Source of the DNA: Nitrospiraceae bacterium
GTDB lineage: Bacteria > Nitrospirota > Thermodesulfovibrionia > UBA6902
Length of the DNA: 51,135 nucleotides
Assembly: GCA_020356065.1 (NCBI GenBank)
Contig: CP070632.1
Span: 1,201,761-1,252,895 of the forward strand
Reading direction: 5' to 3'
The position numbers and the translations under genes are program-made. This document shows positions 20,598 through 41,731 of this stretch, one piece after another. The notes under the pieces were generated by a model. The model saw only the letters and a program-made list of their open reading frames with translations, had not been told where the DNA came from and did not search any database. The first letter of the stretch is position 1, and the number at the start of each line of letters is the position of its first letter.

Positions 20598-20633
20598 AGT
20601 AACGCGTTACGAGTTACTCGTTACTGGTTACTG
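20598..20633. repeat. Heptamer quasi-repeat array between qmoB and qmoC
   Basis: Five imperfect 7-nt units in phase, for example CGTTACG, AGTTACT and CGTTACT. The array fills most of the gap from the qmoC ribosome site to the qmoB stop. It is closely related to arrays inside cobU (35996) and cbiE (41572). Confidence 0.85.
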
Positions 20634-29318: not shown

Positions 29319-29332
29319 GTCTCACATAATTA

Positions 29333-29520
29333 GTTCAGGCGCCCGATAGGGCTTAATGGGGAATCCAGTGAAATACTGGAGCGGACCCGCCGCTGTAACC
29401 CTGTACCATATATACTGTGGTTCAGCCTCTGGCAGATGCTTTTTGCAGTAATACCACTTCCTGATTCAGGGAGGGAAGGTTAGCCAGAGGTACAGGGAAG
29501 CCAGAAGACCTGCCTGGACA
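29333..29520 (+). promoter_or_regulatory. Cobalamin riboswitch 1 (upstream of btuFCD)
   Basis: The conserved core is visible: GGGGAATCCAGTGAAATACTGG-type P3-P4 region (from 29358), CCGCCGCTGTAACC (29388-29400), and the B12 box AAGCCAGAAGACCTGCC at 29498-29514. A peripheral arm of about 90 nt lies between them. A rho-independent terminator follows at 29580, so adenosylcobalamin binding most likely causes premature termination of btuFCD transcription. Confidence 0.95.
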
Positions 29521-29579
29521 TGCCTCACGAGGAGCCTTCGTGGTACAAGGTTGTGAGGGTAAAGGTTATTGGCTTTTAT

Positions 29580-29622: not shown

Positions 29623-29751
29623 GGTACAGAGTGGCAAAGACACATAAAGGCAGGCACAAAAAGGCAAAGAGACATAGGGACATAGGAGTAAAAAAAATTA
29701 GATTGTTTTTTTTACTATGTGCCTCTGTACCTCTGTTTCTTTGTGCCTGTC
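29623..29751. repeat. Decamer quasi-repeats forming a long imperfect inverted repeat at the btuF 5' end
   Basis: Units of 10 nt run in phase from 29623 (GGTACAGAGT, GGCAAAGACA and so on). After an AT-rich turn (about 29690-29710) a mirrored set runs on the other strand to about 29751 (GTGCCTCTGTACC). The array encodes the putative start, the basic n-region and part of the hydrophobic signal segment of BtuF. Confidence 0.8.
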
Positions 29752-32477: not shown

Positions 32478-32735
32478 TCGGCGATTGATAGCAGGGTAAT
32501 TCGAGGGAATACTGTGCAAAACAGGAACTGCCCCGCAACTGTAATGGGAACGAAAACCTAACAACCAGTTAAGAAGTGAGAATGAAGCATTAAGAGGGAA
32601 TGTATTAAAAAACTTTCAACTTATAACTTCTTACTTCTTAATTGTTTAAAAACCACTGGTGGTTTTTATACTGCCGGGAAGGCGGGTAAGTAGAACGACC
32701 TAAGTCAGGAGATCTTGATTACCTGAAGATTATTT
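32478..32735 (+). promoter_or_regulatory. Cobalamin riboswitch 2 (upstream of btuB-tonB-cob operon) with repeat-expanded arm
   Basis: The core elements are GAGGGAATACTGTGCAAAAC (about 32504), GCCCCGCAACTGTAAT (32530-32545), CCGGGAAGGCGGGTAA (about 32673-32688) and AAGTCAGGAGATC (32702-32714). Between the two halves lies an arm of about 110 nt largely built of heptamer repeats. No clear terminator follows, so control may be at translation or processing. Immediately downstream is a pyrimidine/purine complementarity (CCCCTT with AAGAGGAGG) around a strong Shine-Dalgarno at 32751-32759. Confidence 0.9.
32567..32646. repeat. Two heptamer arrays forming the expanded stem of riboswitch 2
   Basis: Left array 32567-32601 has units such as AGTTAAG, AAGTGAG and AATGAAG. 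Right array 32619-32646 has units such as ACTTATA, ACTTCTT and ACTTCTT. The left segment 32566-32580 pairs with 32630-32644 over 15 positions if two G-U wobbles are allowed. Confidence 0.85.
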
Positions 32736-32760
32736 AACCCCTTCGCGGGAAGAGGAGGTA

Positions 32761-32784
32761 ATGATGAGATACAACAGTTCCTGA
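32761..32784 (+). CDS. Possible 7-codon leader peptide before btuB
   Basis: ATGATGAGATACAACAGT plus one codon and TGA (MMRYNSS) follows an excellent Shine-Dalgarno (AGGAGGT, 32753-32759, abutting the ATG closely). It sits directly after riboswitch 2 and 75 nt before the btuB start, which has its own GGAGG. It may be a regulatory leader or chance. Confidence 0.25.
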   Translation: MMRYNSS

Positions 32785-32858: not shown

Positions 32859-34841
32859 ATGAAGCATATCATTATGAACATGGTGATCATTTTACTTTCA
32901 TCGTGGACAATTCAGGCAGCACAGGACGAGACAATCAAGGTTGGTGAGGTCGTGGTAACGGCCTCTAGGTATGAAGAAGCTCTATCAACGGTACCGACTT
33001 ACACTAATGTGATTGATAAAGATGCAATCAGCAACTCAACATCCAGTAATATACCTGACCTGTTAAGGGCAGCCGGGTTACATGTAAACGATGTTGCTGG
33101 GAACAAACGTAACATGACAGTCGACATTCGCGGATTTGGAGAAACTGCGGGTCTGAATACACTGGTTCTTGTCGATGGACGGCCTGTAAATCAAGCTGAT
33201 CTCAGTGGGACGGACTGGTCACAGATCCCGCTGGACAGAGTTGAAAAAATTGAAATTGTACGAGGGGGGCAGGCAAGTATTTTATATGGAGACAATGCTA
33301 CTGGGGGCGTAATTAATATAATCACCAGAGAAGGCGATGCCCTGCGTTACGGGGCCGGATTTGCAGCAGGCAGTTATCTTTCATTTAAAGAAAATGCATT
33401 TATCTCCAACAGCACCGACAAATTATCCTACTCTCTCTCTGGCAGTCACTTTTTCTCTGATGGCTACAGGGATAACAGTGAAACAGCAGCAAAGGATTTA
33501 GGCATGAACCTGAATTATTATGCTGCTGATTTTATAAAGCTTAATTTAAGTACTGGATACCATAACGATGAAACCGGATTACCGGGCGCACTAAAAGAAA
33601 GTGATTTTTCGGCAGGAGCTTCACGGACAGATACCATCAATCCTGATGATTTTGCGGATGTAACAGATTATTATGTTAAAGGAGGGCCTGAGGTCTATTT
33701 CCGGGGTGACAGTTTCTTCAAGCTTGATGCTTCCTACAGGAAAAGGACATTCCTGACATTTGCTTCTTTTGTTGGCGGAACATTTCTTGGTGACACGGAG
33801 ATCAAAACGACATCAGTTAACCCCCAGTTACTCATTAAAAATAAAATTGGAAAGTCGATGAATACACTGACTCTCGGATATGACTTTCAGGAGGCAAAGG
33901 AAGACATAGAAAATGACTCCTCCTTCTCAGGTCTGGCCACATTTGATCTCAATAAGAAGAACCATGGATACTATGTGCATAATGAAATAAGATTAATCGA
34001 ACATCTTGTGCTTTCAGGAGGATATCGACATGATAAGGCAGAATTCAGCTTTCGTCCCAGCACCCCTGATGAGGCGACCATGGATGAGGACCTTTTCACG
34101 GGAGGGTTAAATTACAACTTTTATAACCAGTCCTATGCATACGTCAGCTATGCCAAGAGTTTCAGATATCCTGTACTGGATGAACTTTTTAATTTTATTA
34201 CGAACTCAATTGATACGACGTTAACACCGCAGACGTCAGACGATTACGAAATAGGTTTACGACACTATGTTACGAAAACCTCATATGCACAGATTAATGT
34301 ATTCCGGATAGAAACTGATGATGAGATATTATACAATCCTACAGGTGGATCTTTCGGCTTTGGAGCAAATGAAAACCTTGACGGTAAGACACGCAGAGAT
34401 GGTGTTGAATTTGCAATCAGTATGCAGCCTGTAGAATGGATACAATTAAATGCTCATTATACATACATGGAAGCTACGGTAAGAGGAGGACAATACAAGG
34501 ACAAAGACATTCCGAATGTGCCAAAGCACAGAACATCGTTTAACTCGGTTTTCTCCCCTGGTCATGGTGTGACCATTGCTTTGAACGGGGTGTATATCGG
34601 CACACGTCCTTTCATTAGTGACTTTTCAAACAGCTTCAAAAAACAGGAAGATTATTTTGTTTTAAACGGTAAGATTAAATATCAGTGGAAAACAATAGCA
34701 GCATTTGTTGATCTGAATAATCTCATGAATAAGGAATACTCGGAATTCGGCACACTGAGCCTTTTCAGTTTTCCTGTTGAAAGTGCCCTGTATCCGTCAC
34801 TTAAGTTTAATACGCTTTTCGGACTGTCAATAGAAATCTAG
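32859..34841 (+). CDS. btuB: TonB-dependent outer-membrane cobalamin receptor
   Basis: 660 aa. A signal peptide (about 1-20, MKHIIMNMVIILLSSWTIQA) is followed by the TonB box region IKVGEVVVTASR, a plug domain (LVDGRPVNQADLSGTDWSQI, RVEKIEIVRGGQASILYGDNATGGVINIIT) and a 22-strand-type beta-barrel ending in an aromatic-alternating final strand (LFGLSIEI). Cobalamin specificity is inferred from the riboswitch in front and the tonB-cob genes behind. GGAGG precedes the ATG. It imports corrinoids in a TonB-driven manner, and the presence of this protein shows the cell has an outer membrane. Confidence 0.92.
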   Translation: MKHIIMNMVIILLSSWTIQAAQDETIKVGEVVVTASRYEEALSTVPTYTNVIDKDAISNSTSSNIPDLLRAAGLHVNDVAGNKRNMTVDIRGFGETAGLNTLVLVDGRPVNQADLSGTDWSQIPLDRVEKIEIVRGGQASILYGDNATGGVINIITREGDALRYGAGFAAGSYLSFKENAFISNSTDKLSYSLSGSHFFSDGYRDNSETAAKDLGMNLNYYAADFIKLNLSTGYHNDETGLPGALKESDFSAGASRTDTINPDDFADVTDYYVKGGPEVYFRGDSFFKLDASYRKRTFLTFASFVGGTFLGDTEIKTTSVNPQLLIKNKIGKSMNTLTLGYDFQEAKEDIENDSSFSGLATFDLNKKNHGYYVHNEIRLIEHLVLSGGYRHDKAEFSFRPSTPDEATMDEDLFTGGLNYNFYNQSYAYVSYAKSFRYPVLDELFNFITNSIDTTLTPQTSDDYEIGLRHYVTKTSYAQINVFRIETDDEILYNPTGGSFGFGANENLDGKTRRDGVEFAISMQPVEWIQLNAHYTYMEATVRGGQYKDKDIPNVPKHRTSFNSVFSPGHGVTIALNGVYIGTRPFISDFSNSFKKQEDYFVLNGKIKYQWKTIAAFVDLNNLMNKEYSEFGTLSLFSFPVESALYPSLKFNTLFGLSIEI

Positions 34842-35611: not shown

Positions 35612-36196
35612 ATGAAAATAACATTTGTCATTGGTGGAGCTAGGAGCGGCAAAAGCTCTTTTGTTCTCAACATGGCATCAAACCTTGAGGGAACAATGGC
35701 CTATATCGCAACCGGAGAGGCCCTTGATGAAGAAATGCGTGACCGGATCAGCAAACACAGGGAAGACAGGGGCCCTGAATGGAGCACGTATGAAGAACCG
35801 GTGGAAATAGCAGAAGTCCTTTCAGAAATTAAAGATTCATACAGTGCCGTCGTTGTTGACTGTTTGACATTGTGGTTATCAAATGTGCTGCACAGAACAC
35901 AGGACACAAAGGTAAGACGTAAGAGGTCAGAGTACAGAACACAGACAACAGAAGATTACATTCAGGAGTTTATTGATAAATTGAAAAGTCTTAAAGACTC
36001 GTCACCCGTCACTCGTCACTCATTACAGCTGTTTATTGTTTCCAACGAACTCGGAATGGGTATTGTGCCGGAAAATGCAATGGCAAGGGAGTTTCGGGAC
36101 CTGACAGGTTTCCTTAATCAGAAAGTAGCAGCAGCAGCAGATGAGGTATATCTTGTTACAGCAGGAATACCTTTAAAAATAAAGGGCTCCATTTAG
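35612..36196 (+). CDS. cobU: Adenosylcobinamide kinase / guanylyltransferase, with repeat-encoded insert
   Basis: 194 aa. P-loop GGARSGKSS (about 8-16), the guanylylation-site region with His (ISKHREDRG, about 46-54), VVDCLTLWLSNVL and SNELGMGIVPENAMAREFRD...LNQKVAAAADEVYLVTAGIPLKIKG identify CobU. It phosphorylates adenosylcobinamide and then transfers GMP to it. Between LTLWLSNVL and FIVSNELGMG, where CobU normally has one short helical linker, two repeat-encoded stretches occur (about 94-115, RTQDTKVRRKRSEYRTQTTE; and about 129-138, SSPVTRHSLQ). The core motifs on both sides stay in frame, so the protein is probably functional. Confidence 0.93.
   Translation: MKITFVIGGARSGKSSFVLNMASNLEGTMAYIATGEALDEEMRDRISKHREDRGPEWSTYEEPVEIAEVLSEIKDSYSAVVVDCLTLWLSNVLHRTQDTKVRRKRSEYRTQTTEDYIQEFIDKLKSLKDSSPVTRHSLQLFIVSNELGMGIVPENAMAREFRDLTGFLNQKVAAAADEVYLVTAGIPLKIKGSI
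35893..35955. repeat. Nine in-phase heptamers inside cobU
   Basis: Units such as CAGAACA, CAGGACA, AAGACGT, AAGAGGT and CAGAACA again. The nine units total 63 nt, a multiple of three, so they add 21 codons without disturbing the frame. Confidence 0.93.
35996..36026. repeat. Second heptamer array inside cobU
   Basis: CGTCACC, CGTCACT, CGTCACT and CATTACA in phase. It encodes SSPVTRHSL. The related array at 41572 in cbiE encodes SSPVTRYAL in the same reading frame. Confidence 0.9.
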
Positions 36197-38992: not shown

Positions 38993-39027
38993 CCTGACTC
39001 CTAACTACTGACTACCAACTACTGTTT
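38993..39027. repeat. Heptamer array in front of cobQ
   Basis: Five units: CCTGACT, CCTAACT, ACTGACT and two more of the same pattern. It ends 1 nt before the cobQ ATG, and no Shine-Dalgarno is visible. Confidence 0.9.
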
Positions 39028-40684: not shown

Positions 40685-41058
40685 TTATCATCGGTCACGG
40701 TAATCCTGAAAAGGAAGCGGACAGTACCGGTTATGTAGCGGATGAGCTTCATAAAATTATTCATCCTTCATGCAGTCATGAGTGCGTACGTACAGCTTAT
40801 CTTCAGTTTATGAAACCTGAACTTCCGGAAGCTATAAACGATGCTGTGAAAGATGGAGCACATAAAATTATTGTTCATCCCTATTTACTCAGCAGTGGAT
40901 ATCACGTGTCAAAAAACATTCCTGATATGATTGATAAGGCAAAAAAAGACCACCCTGATGTTATATTTATATATACCGAACCATTGGGAGCGCACAAAAA
41001 AATTGTAGAAGTAGTTCTTGAGAGAATAAGAGAAACAACAGACCTGCAAAATGAATAA
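40663..41058 (+). CDS. cbiX: Short CbiX-type sirohydrochlorin cobaltochelatase
   Basis: 131 aa from the ATG of MQNKEIIIIIGHGNPEKEA, preceded by AAAGGG. An in-frame ATG ten codons upstream lies deep in cobQ and is less likely. The chelatase active-site His in IIGHGNP and the second His in IIVHPYLLSSGYHV match CbiX-short proteins, which insert Co2+ into sirohydrochlorin as homodimers. It overlaps cobQ by 22 nt and cbiE by 8 nt, so it is tightly coupled in the operon. Misassignment to another small chelatase (SirB-like) is possible. Confidence 0.85.
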   Translation: MQNKEIIIIIGHGNPEKEADSTGYVADELHKIIHPSCSHECVRTAYLQFMKPELPEAINDAVKDGAHKIIVHPYLLSSGYHVSKNIPDMIDKAKKDHPDVIFIYTEPLGAHKKIVEVVLERIRETTDLQNE

Positions 41059-41731
41059 AGTCCTTGTCATAGGTATTGGATTTCGTCCGCTCAATAAAAA
41101 GACCAGCGAAGCACTTCTGCAATCTGATGTCGTTCTAACCAATGACAGACTGCTTGAGGCCTTTAAAGGATATACCGAATATGAAGCCGTTAAAGACAGA
41201 ATAATATCTTTAAAAGATATTCATCAAACGAAACGGTATATTCATGACAATTATCAGAACATTAAAATTGCCCTGCTTGCTGTGGGTGATCCCATGTTAT
41301 TCGGGATAGGCAGAGTAATTAGGGATGAAATTGGCAAAGAGGCAATGGAGGTTCATCCAGACCTGTCCAGTATACAGGTCGCATTTGCAAGGATAAGGGA
41401 GCCATCAAGCAATGCTTTTTTCATGAGTCTTCATGGCGGACCTGATCCTGATAATAGAAGAAAACTTGAATATGAGATTACCGAACTGCCTGATCTGCTT
41501 AAACGGCATAAAAAAATAGCAATCCTTACAGACAGGGTGAATAGCCCAACAGAGATAGCAAAAGTAATCAACTCCTCACCTGTCACGCGTTACGCGTTAC
41601 TGAAAATGTATGTCTGTGAAAAACTGGGATACGACGATGAGAAAATTACAGAGGGCACGCCTGAAGAAATCGCTGCAGAATCCTATGCACACCCCAATGT
41701 AGTAATCATTATATCGGAAAATAATGACTGA
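41051..41731 (+). CDS. cbiE: Cobalt-precorrin-7 (C5)-methyltransferase, CbiE-type
   Basis: 226 aa. The tetrapyrrole methylase fold shows VLVIGIGFRPLNKKTSEALLQSDVVLTNDRLLEAF at the N-terminus and the SAM-site region ALLAVGDPMLFGIG. Its length fits the stand-alone CbiE domain without the CbiT decarboxylase. It methylates the corrin ring at C5. Residues about 174-184 (SSPVTRYALLK) are encoded by a heptamer array related to one in cobU. The other ring-methylating genes are not in this window. It overlaps both neighbours. Confidence 0.85.
   Translation: MNKVLVIGIGFRPLNKKTSEALLQSDVVLTNDRLLEAFKGYTEYEAVKDRIISLKDIHQTKRYIHDNYQNIKIALLAVGDPMLFGIGRVIRDEIGKEAMEVHPDLSSIQVAFARIREPSSNAFFMSLHGGPDPDNRRKLEYEITELPDLLKRHKKIAILTDRVNSPTEIAKVINSSPVTRYALLKMYVCEKLGYDDEKITEGTPEEIAAESYAHPNVVIIISENND
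41572..41602. repeat. Heptamer array inside cbiE
   Basis: CCTCACC, TGTCACG, CGTTACG, CGTTACT in phase. By my count it matches the cobU array at 35999 at 23 of 30 positions when aligned in frame. It is also close to the intergenic array at 20598. Confidence 0.88.

Follow-up and report, generated by a model that had tools for sequence, protein, structure and literature searches.

The cobalamin riboswitch upstream of a btuB-like receptor gene in the Nitrospirota genome under study (G000; 3.17 Mb in one contig) carries, in an internal loop of its aptamer, an extra arm built from two heptamer arrays of opposite polarity. We consider it probable that this loop, just 5′ of the conserved CCACTG, tolerates insertions and serves as a variable insertion site, and that a repeat hairpin from a dispersed family was acquired there by an ancestor and kept both in G000 and in a member of another genus, G022. 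In such a course of events, an ancestor within the Nitrospirota family would have gained the hairpin at the loop, and the arrays, being of opposite polarity, are predicted to fold on themselves and thereby to stay away from the core that binds the ligand. This arm would then have been kept in G000 and at least one other genus with its units drifting, and lost or replaced elsewhere. Positions are those of the window, the whole stretch of 51,135 nucleotides that was analyzed (G000:C1:1201761-1252895), and the riboswitch features and the receptor gene described below lie on its plus strand.

Two matches to the cobalamin riboswitch model RF00174 were found in the window, at 29320–29531 (84.3 bits) and at 32504–32715 (42.0 bits, against a gathering cut-off of 31.5), and these were the only two in the whole G000 genome. 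The first precedes btuF, btuC and btuD-like genes, and the second precedes genes for a TonB-dependent receptor, TonB, CobU and the phosphoribosyltransferase CobT (DBI_PRT), such that the second riboswitch has B12-related genes on both sides. The btuB-like receptor gene directly 3′ of it (32859–34841) was assigned by its PF00593 and PF07715 matches. A covariance model built from seven syntenic relatives, all of which lack the repeat arm, matched 32492–32726 with 87.9 bits (E = 1.8e-22) over model positions 1–143 of 143; it handled the insert as a single block and left the aptamer core complete around it. The conserved core CCCCGCAACTGTAA, the CCACTG (32653–32658, immediately 3′ of the insert), GGGAAGG and the B12 box AGTCAGGAGA were all found, in columns that are invariant in the orthologue alignment. 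An earlier note on this DNA had called the element a cobalamin riboswitch, which both covariance models accept, and its sequence identifies 32492–32726 as such a riboswitch, situated in front of a btuB/TonB/cob operon and with cobalamin binding predicted. The riboswitch would act via a putative expression platform, the conserved CCCTTCGmGGGAAGAGGAGG, which ends in the Shine-Dalgarno sequence AGGAGG (32753–32758) and is kept in nearly all syntenic relatives.

Between the riboswitch and btuB, and served by the same Shine-Dalgarno sequence, we also observed a six-codon micro-ORF (32764–32784). It encodes MRYNSS followed by a stop in G000. In most syntenic relatives the product is MRxNTS or MIxNTS, again followed by a stop, and codons differ synonymously among ACA, ACC, ACG and ACT and among TCA, TCC, TCG and AGT. 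The micro-ORF has the appearance of a conserved leader peptide controlled by the riboswitch; interplay between a riboswitch and a uORF is known from M. tuberculosis (PMC11260477).

The whole insert, delimited against the empty sites of six relatives, spans 32559–32652 (94 nt). Its 5′ arm (32566–32600), recognized by pairing and periodicity, is a heptamer array of AGT-type polarity, and its 3′ arm (32611–32646), recognized in a period-7 scan, is an array of ACT-type polarity made of ACTTCTT units. Within 32560–32650 the period-7 self-match score was 17, with all other periods from 4 to 12 scoring 4 or less, and this value was matched by none of 20,000 dinucleotide shuffles. In the fold, 32566–32581 pairs with 32629–32644 to form an outer stem of 16 unbroken pairs (14 Watson-Crick and 2 G-U). 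None of 1,000 shuffles had as low a folding energy, and the fold of 32556–32675 gave z = −4.3, with none of 200 shuffles as stable. A stem of paired heptamer arrays of opposite polarity, as the earlier note had described, is therefore borne out by the periodicity and the uninterrupted pairing, although its count of 15 pairs was one too low. The arm is AT-rich, and it might be supposed that an AT-rich stretch merely happens to seem periodic and to pair; this has practically no chance of being right, given the repeat family in the genome and the filled and empty orthologous sites described below, and we rejected a chance hairpin on the basis of the shuffle tests.

The place of the arm within the aptamer was established by comparison with about 70 riboswitches from 40 relatives, whose genomes were covered through searches and sampled stretches. 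In a named collection, the relatives of G000 belong to Nitrospirota, and several carry the label Thermodesulfovibrionia. The insert lies between the ...GAAARCCC strand and CCACTG, in the internal loop just 5′ of the latter and distinct from the conserved terminal stem. In Rfam's automatic alignment the CCA is misplaced to the opposite side of the insert, which the orthologue comparison corrects. Among orthologues that share the order btuC-btuD-riboswitch-btuB, the arm site consists of only a few bases, e.g., AAAGCCCAAAATGCCACTG, in G012, G013, G017, G041, G049 and the congener G003; orthologues with an empty site include two genus mates of the filled G022. In G002, of the same genus as G000 (locus L113), the second riboswitch has been lost and btuD and btuB are spaced by 55 bases. 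In the corresponding part, btuF-type riboswitches of this family carry another arm, which is free of repeats. According to these alignments, the arm is an added hairpin in an insertion-tolerant loop rather than a conserved stem taken over. The note placed the arm between the conserved halves of the aptamer; it is an extra arm in an internal loop and not the conserved terminal stem, and the idea that the repeat took over a structured stem while keeping its pairing fails against syntenic orthologues that are mostly armless at this site.

The same site is filled elsewhere. Heptamer arms were found there in G022, G030, G035, G038, G027, G019 and G007, as well as in SKS1.bin124 and BP4.bin66, with fainter heptamer traces in G018 and G024, and hexamer arrays take the place of heptamers in GWC2_42_7 (period-6 score 19) and DBS2-1.bin112 (period-6 score 11). 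The site in G010 holds an unrelated dispersed hairpin, TGTAGGG...CCCCTACA, of which two further copies occur in the same 8.6-kb stretch, one of them just downstream of the riboswitch. G043 has a short arm, and at locus L152 heptamers lie within the loop of a stem that is not itself made of repeats. Relatives bearing an arm without heptamers, which the earlier note had counted against its own reading, thus gave a mixed picture: most orthologues are armless, G010 has a hairpin that is not built from heptamers, and G043 has a short arm. A second filled site is the apical loop of the next (terminal) stem, which carries arrays of an approximately 9-nt unit of the GTTTAAACx type in G003, KR13 and G078 (L062, L127 and L180). 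We also noted that one cobalamin riboswitch of G087 (L183) holds two copies of the hairpin GGGGTCCCCxATCCCGAxTATTCGGGATxGGGG, each in a different loop.

Long insertions are accommodated by riboswitches at particular positions, where they typically form stem-loops (Barrick and Breaker, 2007; PMC2258182). The arm at 32559–32652 belongs to this known kind: empty, short, plain and repeat-built arms share one site across relatives, and the element resembles published cobalamin (AdoCbl) riboswitches (RF00174; PMC2258182) in its core, its gene context and its unconserved stem-loop insertion in a permissive loop. It differs from the variable insertions described for RF00174 in that the insertion in G000 has an identifiable likely source, namely dispersed repeat hairpins, which in this clade have 7-mer, 6-mer and 9-mer units.

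The heptamer repeat is dispersed across the G000 genome. Allowing up to two mismatches, ACTTCTTACTTCTTA gave 87 matches, compared with 31 for its reversed control, and these group into 58 arrays. Eleven pairs of arrays lie within 150 bases of one another on opposite strands, where 0.18 close neighbors would be expected by chance, and in all 11 the minus-strand array comes first (AGT-arm, then ACT-arm), with no pair in the reverse order. At the 20 G000 sites that were read, we found hairpins with AAGTNAG units in the 5′ arm and ACTTCTT units in the 3′ arm, and with differing loops. Because the order of the 11 pairs is fixed, the opposite-armed hairpin appears to be the ordinary form of this repeat in G000, and a riboswitch arm of the same form needs no local inverted copying. 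The earlier note's step from arrays of opposite polarity to inverted copying consequently does not follow, since preformed hairpins of the same unit, and in one order only, are abundant in the genome. The family extends over the clade: three successive TNACTNN units occurred 42 times in G000 (2 for the reversed control) and 2289 times across 41 relatives (740 for the control), exceeding the control in 33 of these 41 genomes. Its units form genomic dialects, with ACTTCTT enriched in G000 and G001 and not in G022, and ACTTTTA enriched in the genus of G022 and in G035 and not in G000, and the riboswitch arms of G000 and G022 each use the dialect of their own genome.

It could alternatively be, along the lines of the earlier note, that the arm originated in place, a short pre-existing arm having grown into paired heptamer arrays through slippage and inverted (template-switch) copying. 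The short arm of G043 would suit such a beginning, as would the heptamers of L152, which sit inside the loop of a non-repeat stem. So would the recurrence of CAG at the base of the stem in 11 of 13 repeat arms, irrespective of unit length; 8 of the 13 also have CTG at the end, and random insertion would not predict such a pattern. However, most orthologues have no arm from which growth could have started, hairpins of the same unit and the same single order are found all over the G000 genome, and the arms follow the dialects of their genomes; we therefore regard an origin in place as quite unlikely. Our preferred reading is that the hairpin came from the dispersed family, and since neither target-site duplication nor conserved element ends were seen at the arm, and the loops of the genomic hairpins vary, we infer rather than observe that it entered as a unit.

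The dispersed hairpins do not resemble a transposable element of the MITE type, in which terminal inverted repeats and a target-site duplication flank a conserved body: no duplication was evident between filled and empty sites, the G000 hairpins read had no shared body, and their inverted arms are arrays. A link to Y1/RAYT transposases was rejected as well, as a profile search with PF01797 found no match in the array-bearing genomes G022 and G003, and no conserved palindrome was present. REP elements with RAYT/TnpA-REP transposases are similar in being intergenic palindromes in many copies, but the G000 repeats lack their conserved palindrome. The palindromic elements of Rickettsia are dispersed hairpins that lie in genes and functional RNAs and have a conserved body sequence, whereas among G000-type copies nothing beyond the short units is conserved.

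Tandem heptamer repeats have been described in other bacteria, including TAACTGA in marine Beggiatoaceae (PMC4679880) and GGGAATC in Xanthomonas and GGGGA(C/T)T in Nostoc (PMC4692102). These likewise form dispersed, mostly intergenic arrays; the Beggiatoaceae unit fits TNACTNN, and an inverted pair has been shown for the Xanthomonas repeat. Published heptamer arrays are mainly direct, whereas in G000 close pairs on opposite strands in fixed order are common and one of them lies inside an aptamer. The text of PMC4679880 does not contain the word riboswitch, and a search of the open-access literature returned no repeat-built riboswitch arm.

How old the arm is was assessed from the G000 and G022 copies. 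Their alignment covers both arms completely, together with the loop, and has 73 identical columns out of 96 and a local score of 46. Against the 20 genomic hairpins of its own genome, the G000 arm scored no higher than 31.5. In 322 kb of G022, the best scores were 28.5 with the G022 arm and 25.5 with the G000 arm, and comparisons among the genomic hairpins of G000 peaked at 37.5. As the two riboswitch arms align above this background, the best reading is a single inherited arm that several relatives have lost and whose units drifted in each genome. An arm common to another genus is, on this alignment, not private to G000. The arms of G030 and G035 scored 21.5–38.5 against those of G000 and G022, values that genomic hairpins also reach (up to 45.5), and we do not claim homology for them; such distant arms may have arisen separately.

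The distribution of filled sites raises the alternative that each lineage, G000 and G022 included, recently and separately gained an insertion at the same permissive loop. In the BtuC-BtuD tree, built from 23 loci and weakly supported at its deep branches, empty relatives come between the filled G000 and G022, and retention of one arm thus needs several losses: parsimony on presence and absence takes five changes from an empty root, compared with one gain and nine losses for a single origin. Unit length also varies among the arms, with 6-mers in GWC2_42_7 and DBS2-1.bin112. Fresh, independent insertion in G000 and G022, which presence/absence and dialects favored, was nevertheless set aside after the two arms were found to match over their whole length, loop included, beyond the background of genomic hairpins, and we consider separate insertion in every lineage decidedly improbable. 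Returning to a single arm inherited by G000 and G022, transfer between lineages may have contributed, and we infer that the pattern among genera reflects retention and loss instead.

A further question is whether the arm was kept because it is functional, through tuning of folding, RNA stability or protein contact. A stable, long hairpin has been kept in G000 (−23.6 kcal/mol) and in G022 (−22.0 kcal/mol) despite differences in units and register, which counts in favor of such a role. The arm is missing, however, from close relatives whose downstream gene is of the same kind, and a hairpin from a dispersed family would fold anyway. Single pairs are poorly kept: of the arm pairs compared between G000 and G022, seven are the same, three changed on one side and five are broken, and pair-by-pair covariation was not shown. 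We therefore think a functional role unlikely as the reason for its retention, and take the arm to be probably neutral, or nearly so, for B12 sensing; the prediction is that it forms a hairpin of its own, projecting from a loop in the peripheral domain, and leaves the core unchanged.

Unconserved riboswitch arms drift fast, and their origin is seldom visible. Here, sites with and without an arm can be compared in orthologous operons alongside the likely genomic source, and what is new is that the likely source of an insertion can be read, that these loops host arrays of three unit lengths as well as an unrelated dispersed hairpin, and that a repeat-built arm was apparently inherited across genera. 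The origin of new RNA arms, and the point at which they begin to matter, thereby becomes a directly testable question. The comparison also brought out a clade-wide heptamer hairpin family of fixed polarity. More tentatively, and with rather less conviction than for the G000 arm itself, we suggest that dispersed short-unit hairpins might generally provide structured RNAs with new arms: families with 6-, 7- and 9-mer units might have lodged again and again in two permissive loops of Nitrospirota cobalamin riboswitches, some being inherited with the units of both arms drifting, and that optional riboswitch arms could be domesticated repeat hairpins.

No period-7 signal was present in the five RNase P RNAs found. 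RF00010 had no match in the 24 genomes of family f1 (G000–G023), while some genomes from other families of the class have one; the usual reading of such an absence would be that RNase P is protein-only. Further arrays were observed within the window. The stretch from the first riboswitch to btuF contains, at 29633–29744, two arrays in inverted orientation with a period of about 8 (GGCACAAAAAGGCAAAGAGACATAGG / CTATGTGCCTCTGTACC); an ORF called from 29520 runs through them, its Pfam match beginning no earlier than residue 100 and its tblastn matches mostly at about residue 70. Period-7 arrays of other units lie at 41576–41600, within a TP_methylase gene (41051–41731), and in intergenic DNA at 38993–39022 and 20599–20633. 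Inside cobU (35612–36196), two period-7 arrays of opposite polarity run in frame at 35912–36021, a stretch whose length varies among relatives, and the CobU of one relative also bears SSPVTRH in the matching variable stretch.
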